64,000 nt of DNA from contig NC_019695.1 of NCBI RefSeq assembly GCF_000317125.1, positions 4,700,336 to 4,764,335 of the forward strand, written 5' to 3'. Positions 49,394-58,571 of this stretch are shown piece after piece. The translations under genes were made by a program, and so were the position numbers. Each line of letters starts with the position of its first letter. Within the stretch, counting starts at the first letter, position 1. This DNA comes from Chroococcidiopsis thermalis PCC 7203 (GTDB taxonomy: Bacteria > Cyanobacteriota > Cyanobacteriia > Cyanobacteriales > Chroococcidiopsidaceae). Under the pieces are notes generated by a model, which was not told where the DNA came from, ran no database searches, and saw only the letters and a list, made by a program, of their open reading frames with translations.

Positions 49394-49516
49394 GTTTAGG
49401 TTTATTTTATACACTGAGGTGCAAATGGCAGAGATTTCATGTCTTAAATGTATCCTCAACGCAGGGTAGTCAACAAATCCCAAGAGTAAGAAAAAAACAG
49501 ATTGCAGGAACAGGCA

Positions 49517-50734
49517 ATGAATAACAGCATTCTTGAAAAATCAGTTGATGCCCTGCTAACTAGGAGAAATGATGCTCCATTAATTCGGGATTTTACCCCC
49601 CCAAAGCAGGTTGAATTGTTTGAAACCTTGAAGCAGTTGCGGTTTAACGGTCAACTGATTCTGACAAACTCCTGCGGTAGAAAATGGATTCTGCACGTTC
49701 ACCGAGGTTTGATTATCTACGCTACTGGTGGAGAACATCCAGTCAGGCGATGGAGACGGAATCTCGCAACACACTTACCTCAAATAGCAAGCGATCGCTC
49801 GCTATCCAACGAATCATGGGAGAATCAACTAGCCACGACTTCGATTGAAGGTTCTAGCGTCTGCTGGCAGTATCAGTTATTGACTTCATGGCTCGAACGG
49901 CAGCAGATAACTCCAGAACAAATGGCAAGATTTGCCTGGTCGGTCATTATCGAAGTTTTGTTTGATGTGACTCAAGCAGTACAGGTTGCTTACGAACTCA
50001 AGCCCAGTAGCAGCAAGCTGACTCCCGTAGTTGCGATCGATGCCGCTCAAGCGATCGCCGAAGTCGAACGATTGTGGCAAGCTTGGCAAGCAAACAGACT
50101 CAATTATTCTCCTAACAGCGCTCCAGTTATTAAACAATCGGCAGAATTGCAACACAGCATCTCTGCTCCAGCTTATCAAGCCTTGAGTCAACTACTAGAC
50201 GGACAACATACGCTACGGGATATTGCCGCTCAGATGCAGCGAGATGTCAACTCGGCACTGCGTTCTCTCTTGCCATATATTCAGTCAGGGTTTGTGGAGT
50301 TGATTAATATTCCCGATCTTGCCGCTCCGGTTCTCTCATCACCTACACCTCATGATACTCAAGCACCATCGATCGCTTGTGTAGATGACAGTCCTTGGGT
50401 ATGTCACATCATGGAAAAAGTGATGACAACAGCTAACTATCGATTTGTGGGCGTAAATGATGCACTGCGGGCGATCGGAGTTTTGCTAGCCATCAAACCA
50501 GATCTCATCTTTCTTGATTTGATGATGCCAAATATTAACGGATACGAACTTTGCAGCCGTCTGCGTCAGCTTTCTTGCTTCCAGCACACGCCAATTGTCA
50601 TCCTCACTGGAAACGACGGCATTATCGATCGCGTCAGAGCTAAAATTGTCGGTTCCTCAGATTTTCTGGGCAAGCCCATCGATCCCGATCGAGTTCTAGG
50701 CGCAATTCACAAACATCTCAAACACAGTGTATAG
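49517..50734 (+). CDS. pixG: PatA/PixG-type response regulator (PATAN-REC)
   Basis: 405 aa from the ATG at 49517, with AGGA ten nucleotides upstream. The N-terminal PATAN/DUF4388 domain (about 25-110, NGQLILTNSCGRKWILHVHRGLI) is followed by a long helical middle and a C-terminal receiver (about 283-400, ACVDDSPWV, LIFLDLMMPNINGYEL with the phosphoacceptor Asp, and LGKP). PatA/PixG proteins act with PilB/PilT systems in motility and can control pilus use. It is first in a six-gene chemotaxis operon like the PixGHIJL set. The substrate or signal is unknown. Confidence 0.9.
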   Translation: MNNSILEKSVDALLTRRNDAPLIRDFTPPKQVELFETLKQLRFNGQLILTNSCGRKWILHVHRGLIIYATGGEHPVRRWRRNLATHLPQIASDRSLSNESWENQLATTSIEGSSVCWQYQLLTSWLERQQITPEQMARFAWSVIIEVLFDVTQAVQVAYELKPSSSKLTPVVAIDAAQAIAEVERLWQAWQANRLNYSPNSAPVIKQSAELQHSISAPAYQALSQLLDGQHTLRDIAAQMQRDVNSALRSLLPYIQSGFVELINIPDLAAPVLSSPTPHDTQAPSIACVDDSPWVCHIMEKVMTTANYRFVGVNDALRAIGVLLAIKPDLIFLDLMMPNINGYELCSRLRQLSCFQHTPIVILTGNDGIIDRVRAKIVGSSDFLGKPIDPDRVLGAIHKHLKHSV

Positions 50735-51233: not shown

Positions 51234-51626
51234 ATGGATATTGCCCTCGTTGTAGAAGATTGTTTGACCGAGCGGGAAGCGATCGCCAGCTATTTGCAAC
51301 AAGGCGGGATCAGCGTCTTGGCTGCTAAGAGCGGAGAAGAAGCTCTGGAAAAAATGAGTGACTGCAAGCCTGACATCATTATTTTAGATGTTGTCTTGCC
51401 AGGTCGGAGTGGATTTGAACTCTGCCGTGCTTTAAAAGCTAACCCATCCACCAAAAATACCCCTGTTATCCTCTGTTCGAGAAAAGGGACTGACATGGAT
51501 AAATTCTGGGGCTTAAAGCAAGGAGCAGACGCTTACTTACCGAAGCCTGTAGCGCCAGAAGAATTTATTCGCACTGTGAAGCAACTGCTATTGGTTTCAC
51601 ACGGTGAAACAACTCTCATGGTTTGA
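51234..51626 (+). CDS. pixH: CheY-like response regulator (PixH type)
   Basis: 130 aa from the ATG at 51234. A longer TTG frame would add 17 repeat-like residues. It is a single receiver domain: VVEDC at the N-terminus, phosphoacceptor Asp in IIILDVVLPGRSG (about 52), Thr/Ser in LCSRK and Lys in LPKPV. It has no output domain, so it should signal by protein contact, as CheY/PilH/PixH do. In the operon it lies between the Mo-nitro_C protein and the CheW. Confidence 0.88.
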   Translation: MDIALVVEDCLTEREAIASYLQQGGISVLAAKSGEEALEKMSDCKPDIIILDVVLPGRSGFELCRALKANPSTKNTPVILCSRKGTDMDKFWGLKQGADAYLPKPVAPEEFIRTVKQLLLVSHGETTLMV

Positions 51627-51651: not shown

Positions 51652-52236
51652 ATGGTATCCAAGTCACCAAAGTTAGACTCCCAGGAGGCATCACCAGAAA
51701 GAGTAACTTTCACCGATGCTGACGAGCAATTTCTGCGCTTTTACCTCGAATCAGACACAGCAGCCTTGCTTCCCGTGACTCAGTTGCTAGAAATCTTGAA
51801 GCTGTCTGCGGAACAGATCGTCCCGATCCCGCACATGCCAAGTTGGGTCATGGGAGTTTACAACTGGCGGGGTGAAATTCTCTGGATGGTCGATTTAGCT
51901 GAATTAGTCGGGCTGACTGCTGGCGATCGCTACCAAACCAGCAACGTTCCAACTTATACGGCAGTTGTCTTGCAAGCTAACCAATGCGATCGCCTACCCG
52001 CACCGACAGCAGAAACCCAAACCATCGGTTTAGTTATCGAGCGAATTGACGATATCGAATGGTGCAATCCAGATACAATCCAACCGCCGCCATTTACTGC
52101 CGTTTCCACTCCCTTCGCTCCCTTCGTGCGCGGATATCAGTTAAACGGCGATAGCGAAATGACAGCAATTTTATCGGTCAAAGCGATCGTTGCTGCTGTC
52201 AGTTGTCAGTTATCAGTGTACAGACGTTACATGTAA
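51652..52236 (+). CDS. pixI: CheW-like coupling protein (PixI type)
   Basis: 194 aa CheW domain (about 28-180: FLRFYLESDTAALLPVTQLLEILKL, VMGVYNWRGEILWMVDLAELVGL, IGLVIERI). It links receptors to the CheA kinase. The last seven codons and the TAA stop lie inside a palindromic repeat (52217-52246), giving the unusual tail SVYRRYM. So the original C-terminus was probably replaced by repeat DNA. It is 25 bp after the CheY-like gene. Confidence 0.88.
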   Translation: MVSKSPKLDSQEASPERVTFTDADEQFLRFYLESDTAALLPVTQLLEILKLSAEQIVPIPHMPSWVMGVYNWRGEILWMVDLAELVGLTAGDRYQTSNVPTYTAVVLQANQCDRLPAPTAETQTIGLVIERIDDIEWCNPDTIQPPPFTAVSTPFAPFVRGYQLNGDSEMTAILSVKAIVAAVSCQLSVYRRYM

Positions 52237-52359: not shown

Positions 52360-55203
52360 ATGTCGCAGTCAACTCTCAAACTCGATCCGCCAAACTCCGA
52401 TCGCGATCGCATCTCGCCTCAGTGGGAGCGAGTTTCGGCAGTAGCGCCAGATTCACCTGAAAAAGCGAGCCAATCGCCATCAACAAAGCCAAACTCGCCT
52501 TGGCAGTTTTCACTATCTAGGGGTTTGCGGTTCTGGAAAGGTTTGAGTTTGCAACATAAAGCAACAATTTTGGCGATCGCAATTGGTGCTATTCCAGTCG
52601 CAACTGTTGGCGGCGTTGCCTACACCGTAGCCAATAGTTCCCTAGAGCAGCAAATTATTGCCGAGCAAGAAAACCGCACGCTTGATGTTCGGCGCGGCAT
52701 TGGCATGGCGACGCAGCAAATAATCGATGATGCCGAGACAATTGGTAATTCTCCCATGTTGGCAAATTCTAAGCTGAGGGCAGCGGCGACTGAAGGACAG
52801 AAAATTGCGCTGTTAGATAGCTTTGTCGAGGCACGTAATGGTAGATATGACAGTATCGTCGTGTTCGACCTCAAAGGAAATTTAATCTTTCAATCCAAGT
52901 CAACGCAGCCGTTTAAGCGCACGGAAAACTATAGCGATCGCGAATATTTTCGGCGGGCGATCGCGACTGGAACTCCCGCAGTTAACAATCCTAAAATTGC
53001 GCCTACCTCCGGCAAAATTAGTTTAGAAGTTGTAGCTCCAATTAAAGATATAGAAACAAATAAGCTCGTAGGAGTTGTTCGCTTGCGGATGCCGTTGACT
53101 CATCTAAACGAAACCTTTGAGTATATTGAAGCGCAAGGATGGGAATACAAACTGATCGGTGCTGACGGGAATGTGTTTGCGGCTGATGAAATTGGGCTAG
53201 TGGGGCATTACTTGGGAGAAGATTTTCGCGAACTGCCGCATTTGCGTGCCAAGGTTTTAGCGCTTGCCTCTACAGATCGACCCAGGCATGAAGACAAGCT
53301 AATTTCAACTCAAGTCGCGTGGGACAAAAACGATGGTGAGAATGCACTGATGAGCTTCACGCCGATCGGTCAATTGGATGGACTACCAGAACCAGGTTGG
53401 GGATTGGTGGTTTCTCGTCCCGTCGATCGCGCCTTTGCACCTTTACTAGAACTGCGCCGAGTTCTCTGGTTGGGAACTGGAGTAGCCGCCGTATCGATCG
53501 CCGCGATCGCCGCAGTTTTGGCTAAGCGGGCGACTTATCCAATTCTAAATGCTGCTAGGGCTGTGGCTCAAATTGGTTTAGGTAAGTTAGATACTCGCGT
53601 GGCAGTCCGTGGCACGGCTGAAATGGCTGTTTTAGAGACTAGCATCAACAGCATGGCGAAGCAGCTAGAAGAACTCGTGCAGCTCAAAGCAGCAGAAGCT
53701 CGGCGATCGCAATTACTCAAAGATGTTACCGTGAAGATTGGTAGCGCAATCGACTGCCCAGCTATTCTCAACACCGCTGTAGCCGAGACCCGCAGCGCTT
53801 TGCTAACCGACCGCGCAATTGTCTATTGGTTTGATGGCGATCGCAATGGTAGCGTCGTTGTCGAAGCCGCAAGCGCAGGTATAACTCGCATACTGGGTAA
53901 AAACATCGAAAACTATGCCCTAGAGCAATACACACAATATCAAAAAGGTCAAGTCGAAGTCATTTCTCAGATCCGACCGGCAGATACGAGCGATGAGTAC
54001 TGGCAACAGTTAACAGCACTTGCCGTCAAATCCAGTCTAGCTGCACCAATTTTACTCGGCGATCGCTGTGTGGGTTTACTTGTCGTGCATCAGTGTAACG
54101 TTCCGCGTCACTGGCAGAAAGTAGAGGTTGATTTCTTTGCCCAGATTGCCACTCAAATAGGATTGGCGTTAGAGCGTGCCGATCTTTTGGAACAACAGAA
54201 AAATGCCAAAGAACAGTTGCAAAGACGAGCGTTGGATTTGCTAATTGAAGTCGATCCAATTAGTCAAGGCGACCTGACAATCCGCGCCAGAGTCACAGAA
54301 GATGAAATCGGCACGATCGCTGACTCCTATAACTCTACAGTCGAAAGCTTGCAAGAAATTGCGGTACAGGCACAAACAGCCGCCAAACAAGTCGATGCAG
54401 CAATTAGCAGTAACGAGCCGTTAATCCAAGCCCTCTCGCAAGGAGCTTGGCAGCAATCGACAGAGATTGTCACTGCTTTGGAACGCATTCAAGCGATGGC
54501 TGATTCTGCCCATACTGTTGCGGATAACGCCAAACGCGCAGAAATAGACGTGCGCCAAGCGATGGAGACAGTCGCATCTGGGGATATAGCAATGGATCGT
54601 GCCGTAGATGGAATGCTGACAATTCGGGGGACTGTTGCCGAAACCGTCAAGAAGATCAAATGTTTGGGAGAGTCATCGCAAAAGATTTACAAAGTGGTAA
54701 ATTTGATCGCTCACTTTGCCGAGCGGACTAGCTTGCTCGCCATGAATGCTTCCATTGAAGCAGCGCGAGCAGGGGAAGAAGGACGCGGTTTTGCGGCTGT
54801 TGCCGATGAAGTGCGATCGCTAGCCCGACAATCAGCCAAAGCAACAGCAGAAATTGAAAAGCTCGTCTCGGGGATTCAACGGGAAACCAATGAAGTTGCT
54901 ACAGCAATGGCAATCGGCACAGAACAGGTAGCGATCGGGACTCAACTCGTCAACGATACCCGTCAGAGTTTAAACCACATTACCACCGCCAGCGATCGCA
55001 TTCATCAACTCGTAGGAGCAATTGCCCAAGCTGCGATCGAGCAATCTCAAGACTCAGAAGCAGCCACGACAACCATCGCCACAGTCGCAGCGATCGCCGA
55101 AACTACCTCCCTAACTGCAACCGAAGTCTCCGCTTCCTTCCAACAATTATCAACCGTCGCGCGATCGCTCCAAGCCAGCGTCGGTCAATTCAAAGTTAGT
55201 TAG
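52360..55203 (+). CDS. Methyl-accepting chemotaxis protein with Cache, HAMP and GAF domains (PixJ-like)
   Basis: 947 aa from the ATG at 52360 (TGAGG 9 nt upstream). A long Ser/Pro-rich N-terminal tail is followed by TM1 (about 65-90), an extracytoplasmic Cache region (about 95-360, [14 protein letters not shown]), TM2 (about 370-390) and HAMP. A GAF domain (about 470-620) comes next, then a second HAMP-like segment and the MCP signalling hairpin (about 790-815, [28 protein letters not shown]-like). PixJ photoreceptors have a chromophore Cys followed by His in the GAF domain. That position here reads DEYWQQLTA, with no Cys. It is therefore likely a chemosensor rather than a photosensor. Confidence 0.9.
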   Translation: [947 protein letters not shown]

Positions 55204-55242
55204 TGGCTAGTGGCTGGTGACTAGTGACTAGAATTGTCTTCT

Positions 55243-55340
55243 CCCTTGTCCCCCTTCGCCCCCCTTGTCCCCCTTGTCCTCCTTGTCTCCCTTATCTCCT
55301 ATCTCCTTAGTTTTGACTTCTAACTTTTGACTTTTGACTT
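55243..55340. repeat. CCCCTTGT and TTTTGAC heptamer repeats
   Basis: Several CCCTTGTCC units (reverse complement of the GACAAGGGG type) and then TTTTGACTT units fill the gap between the MCP and CheA genes. Confidence 0.85.
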
Positions 55341-55361
55341 GTCCCCCTCTGGTTCCCAGTC

Positions 55362-55466
55362 ATGCTAATTACTCCCGACATTCGCGACCAAGCTTACCGT
55401 CTGTTTATTGAAGAAGTGCCAGAGCTGCTACAGGAGATCGAGGCAGGCTTGCTTAGTCTGAAGTAA
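55362..55466 (+). pseudogene. Detached 5' end of the cheA-like gene, cut by an in-frame TAA
   Basis: ATG 55362 opens MLITPDIRDQAYRLFIEE, the normal PixL/CheA N-terminus and first helix of the HPt domain. Codon 35 is TAA at 55464-55466, in the same frame as the rest of cheA. The downstream ERTHERIHDLMRAAHSLKGG is the direct continuation. A CAA glutamine codon needs one base change to become this TAA. Confidence 0.75.
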
Positions 55467-55496
55467 GAGCGCACGCACGAACGCATTCACGATTTG

Positions 55497-58400
55497 ATGC
55501 GTGCAGCTCACTCTCTTAAAGGTGGTGCAGCTTGCTTGGATTTAGAGCCAATTAAAATTATTGCCCACCGTTTAGAAGATGTTTTTCGGGCTTTGTACAA
55601 CCGCTCTGTAGCAATAGATTCAGAGTTAGAAGGTTTATTACTGCAAGCTTACGATTGTCTGCGCGTCCCCCTACTGCAACAAATTACCATCGGCAGCATT
55701 GACTGTGCGGCAACATTAGCAGTAGCCGAACCCGTATTTAATCAAATAGAAGAACGTTTAGGAGATGCTTTAGCTCAGATCGATCGCTATATGCCCATGT
55801 CCTCAGAACTTGGGGTCGATTTGGTAGCTTCAATCTTTGAAACTGATGTCGTACAAGGACTGGAACGATTGGCGGCTGTGGTTGCCAACCCCCAAGATTT
55901 CGAGGTGGTTGGAGAATTACGGGCGCAGGCAGAAGTCTTTGCTGGATTTGCGGAGCTGCTGAATTTACCAGGATTTGGGGCGATCGCCCAAACAGCCTTA
56001 ACTGCACTAGACACCTATCCCGATCGCGCTAGAGAAATTATTCAAGTTGCCCTAGCTGATTTTCACAATAGCAGAGCTGCCGTACTAGCAGGCGATCGCA
56101 CTAGTGGAGGGAGTCCGTCTGCTGCCCTTTGTGCGTTAACAGAAAAGAGCGTCGATTTGGTTCCTAACCCAGAGTCAGAATTCTCGCCTTTATTAGACGA
56201 GCTGTTATTTGGCGACGAGACAGCACCAATAGAAGCAGTGGCGATCGACCCTGGAATTATTTTCGTCACTGAAACTGAAGATGATTCCAATGGCGCGATC
56301 GAATCAGATGCTCATTCCCTAACTATTTCCCCTGCGGCAAATTTATCGCCGATTCAGTCCTTATCCCACTCGACTGAAATTTCTCAAAGCAAAATAGAGG
56401 GCGATCGCCCTAAAGTAGGAACTACCAATTCCTACACAGATGAATCACAGATAGCGACAGCTGTTTCTACGCGAGTAGAATTAAGCCGATTAGAGCGGAT
56501 GCATAAGTTATTGGGTGAATTAGTCGTCAATCGTAACTCCATTGCCCTGCAAACCGAGCAAACCCAAAACTCAGCCCAAGAGTTACTCCGCCGTTTTGCT
56601 CACTTTCAAGAACTGATCGGTCAGCTAGAGAGAAGAGCTGAGGGAGACAAGGGAGCAGGGAACAGGGAGCAGGAAGTTGTGGGACAAGGGGGACAAGGGG
56701 GACAAGGGGGAACTCGGGGATCCCACGACCGAAGGGAGTGGGGATTAGGGGGCGAAGGGGGACAAGGGGGACAAGGGGGACAAGGGAGAATAATTGCTAA
56801 CTACCAACTACCAACTACCAATTACCAATTACCAACTACCAATTACCAACTACCAATTACAACTGACTTCGATCCTCTAGAAATGGATCGTTATGGAGCG
56901 GTTCACCCTCTATTACAAAGAATTCTAGAAGAAATTGTCCAATTGGAAGAGGCTGTAGAGGATATTGCTTTATTTGCCGAGCAATCGAGTCAAATATTAG
57001 AGCGGAAACAACAAGTTTTTTCCCAACTCCAAGATGAATTAATGCGAGCGCGAATGCTTCCTTTGGGTGAAGTTCTCAAGCGGTTCTCTCGGATGCTGCG
57101 GGATATGTCTCATACTTACTCCAAGCCTGTCAATTTGAAGCTGAGAGGGACAGAGGTACAGGTAGAAAAGGCGATTTTGGAAAAACTCTACGACCCGCTG
57201 TTGCATTTACTCCGCAATGCCTTTGCTCATGGCATCGAGTCACCTGAAATCCGCCAACAGCAAGGTAAGCCGGAAAACGGAGAAATTCTGATTTGTGCTT
57301 ATTACAAAGGCAATCAAACAATTATTGAAGTTAGAGATGACGGTCGGGGTCTAAATTTGGGACAAATTCGCAGCCGGGTCGTAGAGTTGGGTTGGTTGTC
57401 GCCAATAGAAGCAGCCAGCGCCTCGAAAGAGCAGTTGCTAGAATTTATCTTCGAGCCAGGATTTTCTACCACTCACCACGTTAGCGAACTTTCCGGTCGT
57501 GGCATGGGTTTGGATGTTGTCCGTTCTCAACTGCGATCGCTGCGCGGTTCTGTAAGCGTCAGTTCCTTCCCTGGTGAGGGTACGACCTTTATTTTACGCT
57601 TGCCTCTCACGTTGACGATCGCGAATTTGGTTGTTTGCTCTACGGGGAAAACTACCGTAGCGTTGCCATCTGACAGTATTGAAAATATTGTCACTACGCC
57701 AAGCGATCGCATCAATCGCACGGGGACTCAGCAGCTGTTGCGCTGGCGAGAACACATCATACCAATCCATCGGTTGGCGGATCTTTTAGAATACAATCGT
57801 CCAATGTTAGAAGTTGCTAACAGCCAATCTCCAATTACAACCACAGTAGAAGAACGAGAGTTGCCAATGCTTCTACTACGTTGGGAGGGCGAATTATTGG
57901 CGTTAGAAGTTGATTGCTTGTTGGCAGAACAAGAACTAGCAATTAAACCTTTTGGATCGCTCGTTTCGCCTCCCAAATATACCTATGGCTGCACTCTACT
58001 AGGAAACGGTAGTTTAGTTCCCGTGATTAATGGAATCAGCCTTTTAGAATATGTCCTAGAACGGCAACAAAATACAATTCAGACAACTGAAAGTCAATCA
58101 CAAGACAGAGAACAAAACATCAATAATTTGTGGCGCGACCGAACAGCAATTGTTCATAAAACCGAACGTCCTACAATTTTAGTTGTAGATGACTCAACTA
58201 CGATGCGCCAAACGCTAACACTTTCGTTGCAAAAGGCTGGCTATCGAGTTTTATCAGCGCGGGATGGATTAGAAGCACTAGAAAAATTACAGCAATCTCC
58301 CACGGTACAACTAGTACTTTGCGATATTGAAATGCCGAATATGAACGGCTTTGAATTTCTCTGTCAGTGGCGACAAGAGCCGCAATTTGCCAAAATTCCC

Positions 58401-58571
58401 GTGGCTATGTTGACATCACGCAGTAACGACAAACATCGCCGTTTAGCAACTCAATTAGGTGCTAGCGCCTATTTCACCAAGCCGTATATAGAACTTGAGT
58501 TTTTGCAAGCACTCAAGAATATTTTCGAGCAGACCATAGAAGAACAAACGGCTTTGCAGCATATCGCCTAG
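55497..58571 (+). CDS. pixL: Hybrid CheA-type histidine kinase with C-terminal receiver (PixL-like), 5' interrupted
   Basis: 1024 aa if translation restarts at the ATG at 55497 (TTG 55494 is the other choice). The phospho-accepting His of AHSLKGG lies just inside, but the first HPt helix is lost because of the TAA at 55464. A long linker follows, containing a repeat-encoded segment (56641-56861) with GQGGQGG and NYQLPTT peptides. The CheA dimerisation/ATPase domains come next (HLLRNAFAHGIESPE, VRDDGRGLNLGQIRSRV, GRGMGLDVVRSQ), then the CheW-like domain and a C-terminal receiver (VVDDSTTMRQ, LCDIEMPNMNG). It should be the kinase of this operon. Whether it is functional depends on the stop codon. 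Confidence 0.85.
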   Translation: MRAAHSLKGGAACLDLEPIKIIAHRLEDVFRALYNRSVAIDSELEGLLLQAYDCLRVPLLQQITIGSIDCAATLAVAEPVFNQIEERLGDALAQIDRYMPMSSELGVDLVASIFETDVVQGLERLAAVVANPQDFEVVGELRAQAEVFAGFAELLNLPGFGAIAQTALTALDTYPDRAREIIQVALADFHNSRAAVLAGDRTSGGSPSAALCALTEKSVDLVPNPESEFSPLLDELLFGDETAPIEAVAIDPGIIFVTETEDDSNGAIESDAHSLTISPAANLSPIQSLSHSTEISQSKIEGDRPKVGTTNSYTDESQIATAVSTRVELSRLERMHKLLGELVVNRNSIALQTEQTQNSAQELLRRFAHFQELIGQLERRAEGDKGAGNREQEVVGQGGQGGQGGTRGSHDRREWGLGGEGGQGGQGGQGRIIANYQLPTTNYQLPTTNYQLPITTDFDPLEMDRYGAVHPLLQRILEEIVQLEEAVEDIALFAEQSSQILERKQQVFSQLQDELMRARMLPLGEVLKRFSRMLRDMSHTYSKPVNLKLRGTEVQVEKAILEKLYDPLLHLLRNAFAHGIESPEIRQQQGKPENGEILICAYYKGNQTIIEVRDDGRGLNLGQIRSRVVELGWLSPIEAASASKEQLLEFIFEPGFSTTHHVSELSGRGMGLDVVRSQLRSLRGSVSVSSFPGEGTTFILRLPLTLTIANLVVCSTGKTTVALPSDSIENIVTTPSDRINRTGTQQLLRWREHIIPIHRLADLLEYNRPMLEVANSQSPITTTVEERELPMLLLRWEGELLALEVDCLLAEQELAIKPFGSLVSPPKYTYGCTLLGNGSLVPVINGISLLEYVLERQQNTIQTTESQSQDREQNINNLWRDRTAIVHKTERPTILVVDDSTTMRQTLTLSLQKAGYRVLSARDGLEALEKLQQSPTVQLVLCDIEMPNMNGFEFLCQWRQEPQFAKIPVAMLTSRSNDKHRRLATQLGASAYFTKPYIELEFLQALKNIFEQTIEEQTALQHIA
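56641..56861. repeat. In-frame heptamer repeats in the cheA linker
   Basis: GGGACAAGG-type units, a non-repetitive 50-bp island, more GGGACAAGG units, then ACCAACT/ACCAATT units. All are translated, giving GQGGQGG and [14 protein letters not shown]. Confidence 0.9.

Follow-up and report, generated by a model that had tools for sequence, protein, structure and literature searches.

The described system closest in components to the locus studied here is the Synechocystis tax1/pix cluster, in which, in the parts of the source on which we draw, the CheA protein PixL is encoded together with a PatA-type regulator, a CheY-like regulator, CheW and a methyl-accepting receptor (MCP) (PMC5812497). Both E. 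coli and S. typhimurium have a short CheA that lacks the site of phosphorylation (passages of PMC3676780 and PMC11005335), and E. coli makes its version, CheA-S, beside the full-length form (PMC3676780). In bipartite CheA, as excerpts of PMC10782961 describe it, the HPt is a separate gene. For domesticated legacy strains of Synechococcus elongatus, a loss of taxis has been proposed to come from culture; the available sections of that account trace it to other genes and hold no CheA nonsense allele (PMC9239245).

Here we describe a window of 64,000 nucleotides of Chroococcidiopsis thermalis PCC 7203 with an operon whose set of components matches that of the pix cluster and whose CheA gene is interrupted by an in-frame stop codon. 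The likeness to PixL is one of cluster components and not of protein comparison, and the two differ in that the gene here is interrupted and that its receptor is a dCache-HAMP-GAF protein without the bilin cysteine, not a cyanobacteriochrome. As with CheA-S, a CheA without its phosphorylation site could arise from a downstream start, but here it would be a predicted product with no long form expected beside it. As in bipartite CheA, the HPt is severed from the kinase core; here, however, the break lies inside the HPt domain, and this gene holds the window's sole Hpt place among the 17 in the genome. Reading from one assembly, we consider the stop to be probably a recent nonsense mutation that truncates this kinase, in a genome with at least nine of the CheA type (this one included), with a sequence error as the main rival.

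A single stop codon interrupts a CheA gene

The CheA-REC gene occupies positions 55362–58571 of the forward strand, on which the other operon genes and the codons, helix and repeat insert located below also lie (Pfam, ORF reading), and has uninterrupted orthologs in two congeneric genomes, G002 and G001. Its domains run in the order HPt/P1, second helical bundle (with no Hpt match), H-kinase_dim, HATPase_c, CheW and response regulator. The core thus has the expected order of a CheA histidine kinase, with Pfam E-values of 1e-15 for HATPase_c and 5.5e-14 for CheW, and 0.0002 for H-kinase_dim, whose 22.2 bits fall slightly below its 23-bit cut-off. These domains and the alignment to homologs bear out the identification as CheA made in the original prediction.

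From ATG 55362 the frame reads MLITPDIRDQ...LLSLK (34 residues), meets TAA as codon 35 at 55464–55466, and continues with ERTHERIHDLMRAAHSLKGG, open up to 58571; the predicted stop is thus present in the CheA N-terminus, with the same frame on both sides. Upstream of the ATG the sequence differs among the three genomes and the reading from it is conserved, which supports 55362 as the true start. A promoter/terminator scan around the start found none of either. The peptide 5′ of the TAA can be aligned, each residue in turn, with the N-terminus of CheA proteins that have no interruption, so the stop in this frame is more than a chance occurrence. Pfam Hpt scores 30.4 bits (E 4.8e-07) on the ORF after the TAA alone and 59.4 bits (4e-16) on an N-terminal piece of 100 residues in which X stands for the TAA; because the score climbs when the stop is bridged, both flanks belong to one HPt domain. 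An N-terminal HPt with its phospho-His is accordingly present only across the TAA and is severed in the gene as translated. Over 3.2 kb the TAA is the only lesion (one stop, zero frameshifts).

The stop separates helix A from the putative phospho-His

We modelled residues 1–244 with AlphaFold2, reading the TAA as Q (38 sequences; mean pLDDT 87.9, pTM 0.68). Modelled helices span residues 5–32, 39–58, 62–77 and 87–110, followed by further ones, and the stop lies within the loop predicted to join helix A (5–32) to helix B (39–58), separating helix A (55374–55457) from the remainder of the domain. The putative phospho-His, H50 (55509–55511), sits in modelled helix B and is invariant in both alignments, one of which drew on 37 of the 57 named loci. 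The stop therefore lies 5′ of this putative phospho-His, at codon 35 against codon 50, as had been proposed.

A Foldseek search of the PDB placed CheA P1 domains (1i5n and others) at ranks 1–9 with probability 1.00 and TMt of about 0.8, the best at E 1.8e-02, with no match at E 0.001. By phmmer against the PDB, the first match was the designed repeat protein BRIC1 (1.2e-09), followed by CheA P1 chains at 6.6e-09 to 3.1e-06.

The second helical bundle was considered as a substitute and rejected: residues 106–244 gave no Hpt match even at E 10, and an alignment by eye has E, not His, in the place of P1 H50.

Relatives carry a sense codon at the site of the stop

Both congeners examined, G002 and G001, read CAA at codon 35 in an uninterrupted gene, with DNA identities over the first 596 bases of 98% and 95%, respectively. 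One C-to-T change accounts for the TAA, since CAA is the sister state; this part of the original prediction stands. Among 57 named homologs, a set that leaves out the genome of the window and possibly some close to it, none shows a stop within residues 1–60. Residue 35 itself varies (Q, E, S, G, N, P and others) when read by position, which is not homologous in L110–L113 because of an insertion. Stops occur later in the matched stretch at four of the 57 loci (L106, L109, L114 and L116), and we take these to be probable frameshifts of draft assemblies. No stop was found within the 244-residue stretch in 23 aligned homologs and paralogs. In a family search of 19 genomes, the only other match with stops among the matches listed was a marginal one in G017 (31% identity), and in an order search of 195 genomes (162 with a match) all others among the matches listed were stop-free.

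As a control, we took those sister ORFs, 120 aa or longer, that match the window at 85% identity. These were 44 of 60 ORFs from G001 and 25 of 56 from G002, whose stretch corresponds to only about 28.6–64 kb of the window. Three sister ORFs have an internal stop in the window: CheA, from both sisters, and two antisense ORFs. The antisense ORFs do not count as broken genes, as they lie inside intact ones. In the reverse direction, window ORFs read in the sisters have stops within 16 residues of an ORF end. In the branch-wise count of changes given below, an apparent stop in G002 ClpX proved to be an artefact: codon 271 has a different sequence in each of the three genomes.

That this control turned up no internal stop in a real gene other than the one in CheA could also speak for a base-calling or assembly error, the strain really having a sense codon at 55464. 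There is precedent in the portion of PMC9239245 that we cite: in an older sequence of Synechococcus elongatus PCC 6301, essential genes seemed to carry nonsense and frameshift SNPs, which were absent on resequencing. A gene otherwise under normal constraint, as described below, would fit an error as well. Against it, the site lies outside any homopolymer, the assembly consists of 3 contigs and has a completeness of 100, and the same stretch carries other ordinary substitutions specific to this genome. These points lower the likelihood of an error short of excluding it, and we regard one as unlikely; the nonsense mutation remains our preferred reading.

The gene has evolved under unchanged constraint

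Counting own-specific changes against G002 and G001 by majority, we found 56 synonymous changes, 24 non-synonymous changes and 1 stop in the CheA gene, giving dN/dS of 0.13 on its own branch, compared with 0.13 for G002 and 0.15 for G001. The operon partners are likewise constrained on this branch: dN/dS is 0.09 for the receptor gene (0.07 in G002, 0.21 in G001) and 0.12 for CheW (0.10 in both). The first 244 codons hold 11 own-specific codon changes: 8 synonymous, the replacements N39H and A183V, and the stop. From a baseline of 0.13, the probability of 24 or fewer non-synonymous changes is 0.11 for a neutral share of 5% of the branch; it drops to 0.006 for 10% and 0.00015 for 15%, and is smaller beyond, so that by this count at most about 5–10% of the own branch can have been neutral.

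The original prediction had offered a true pseudogene or a strain-specific loss of taxis as options. Apart from the stop itself, nothing marks the gene as an old pseudogene or this taxis system as long lost: because constraint is unchanged on CheA, with no further lesion and with constrained partners, an old pseudogene is excluded for practical purposes, and we give this reading almost no weight. A very recent pseudogene would look no different, and it is as a recent nonsense allele that the pseudogene option survives. Unchanged constraint would be equally expected from a very recent null allele, a working product or a sequence error.

Under the preferred reading, a C-to-T nonsense change would have arisen recently in the lineage of the strain, possibly in culture. 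Translation would stop after residue 34, in the loop between helices A and B of the HPt (P1), and little or no full-length kinase would be made. A low-level product started downstream would be without helix A and, from the best-scoring start, also without the phospho-His, in which case it could not carry its own phosphate. The signal of the dCache receptor would then miss both response regulators by way of this kinase, and at least eight other CheA-type kinases would still be open. Those loci, two of which were checked with Pfam, are all open over the kinase-core stretches matched.

Restart and read-through as sources of a product

Re-initiation had been suggested at the adjacent TTG and ATG of 55494–55499. 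Neither 55494 nor 55497 is preceded by a Shine-Dalgarno-like sequence; their anti-Shine-Dalgarno duplex energies are -0.3 and -0.8 kcal/mol (0.90 and 0.80 of background), weaker than at most random positions, which leaves the suggestion poorly supported. The native ATG 55362 is also without a clear Shine-Dalgarno (-2.7 kcal/mol, 0.51 of background), so its absence at 55497 is weak evidence. The best upstream sequence among in-frame candidates up to 55900 belongs to TTG 55536–55538, at -11.0 kcal/mol, from which the product would be without H50. Its strong score comes from the KGG motif, whose codons look like a ribosome-binding site.

A functional shortened CheA could thus start at 55494/55497, keeping H50 and losing helix A, or at TTG 55536, losing H50. 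Such a product would account for the unchanged constraint, it would have the strong sequence at 55536 to start from, and short forms without the phosphorylation site have the bacterial precedents cited above. Yet it would be missing either helix A of the helical bundle or the phospho-His, and N39H is the sole own-specific codon change in codons 36–58. The congeners, whose gene is uninterrupted, have exactly the same sequence ahead of 55536, so the site is no response or new adaptation to the stop. We judge a functional short form distinctly unlikely. A more elaborate version would explain why the stop is tolerated: the protein from TTG 55536, itself without a phosphorylation site, would enter receptor arrays and place its kinase core at the service of HPt domains in the other CheA kinases, so that the output of the dCache receptor is redirected to other regulators. 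We rate this as highly improbable.

Read-through of the TAA by a suppressor or near-cognate tRNA, which had also been raised, has in its favour the conserved frame downstream and nothing further. An anticodon for TAA, TAG or TGA was not among 46 tRNA matches of the genome (ARAGORN), in a search whose first look scored 150 of 373 candidates and that could miss a divergent gene. Suppression by a tRNA is thus left without support, and a programmed recoding event would be conserved in orthologs, whereas both congeners have CAA and none of the 57 named homologs has a stop in that N-terminal stretch of 60 residues. We attach a very slight probability to read-through and return to a nonsense mutation, by which the stop would most likely be an ordinary loss of function (or, failing that, a database error) with no new mechanism. 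The observation itself is real, its biology ordinary, and it is useful for annotation.

As a separate observation, the conserved HSLKGG motif codons at 55509–55538 form a strong Shine-Dalgarno-like sequence before an in-frame TTG.

The operon has pix-type components and a dCache receptor

Upstream of CheA are a DUF4388-REC response regulator of the PatA type (49502–50734, Pfam; 49502 is a mechanical ORF start in the start-site scoring), a single-domain response regulator (51234–51626, ORF reading and Pfam), CheW (51652–52236, Pfam) and a methyl-accepting receptor, dCache_1-HAMP-GAF-MCPsignal, whose GAF is without the bilin cysteine (52360–55203, Pfam and GAF comparison); the remainder of the operon is open. 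We take DUF4388 to be the PATAN domain. All the pix components are found here (PatA-type REC, CheY-like REC, CheW, MCP and CheA), whereas the MCP has dCache_1 and no bilin-binding GAF cysteine: its GAF reads E-Y, against C-H (three) or C-Y (one) at this place in four GAFs from three further receptors of this organism. The cysteines of those other GAFs presumably bind bilin. The description of the kinase as PixL-like holds for the cluster components and fails for the adjacent receptor.

Because the partner receptor is a dCache protein whose GAF has no bilin cysteine, loss of phototaxis is not the first prediction from the stop, which narrows the strain-specific loss of taxis once proposed; its long-standing form is disfavoured by dN/dS. 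Among the GAFs examined, receptors with cysteine-bearing GAFs adjoin open CheA genes at 241 kb (two GAFs and a single Cache domain) and 6.10 Mb (four GAFs, no Cache); as the 241-kb receptor has a Cache domain too, Cache alone cannot separate the receptor types. The broken kinase would lie outside the main phototaxis pathway and most likely served a chemoreceptor pathway common to many relatives, one that perhaps acts on type IV pili.

Directly upstream of the CheA homolog, a large ORF matches the 52360–55203 receptor nearly end to end in one piece at 17 of the 35 named loci surveyed (from the 57, with some loci that have upstream sequence left out). At the others the match is partial (15, mostly to the C-terminal signalling part) or absent (3). 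A crude cysteine motif, which likely misses some cases, was found in none of the 17 end-to-end receptors, and Pfam detected dCache_1 in three of the four scanned.

Titles and opening lines of abstracts in the open-licence PMC literature on Chroococcidiopsis phototaxis, motility/type IV pili, pseudogenes and cheA contain no mention of this allele, and nothing on the motility of this strain was found in the parts of PMC7381351 and PMC8580901 at hand. For annotation and strain choice, work on taxis or pili in this strain should not assume a working chemosensory operon, and an operon with a dCache receptor may pass for a phototaxis operon if it has the same components.

Repeats lie within and before the CheA gene

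Comparison of the three congeners revealed an in-frame repeat insert of variable length in the CheA dimerisation region (56655–56847), built of GGGGGACAA units and AACTACC units and adding a Gly/Gln-rich and NYQLPTT stretch. This part of CheA matches many places in the genome, often with stops, which gives the insert the look of a dispersed intergenic repeat that the gene has captured. Between the receptor and CheA genes, positions 55204–55361 consist of short repeats, C/T-rich and of the TTTTGACTT type, and differ strongly among the three congeners.
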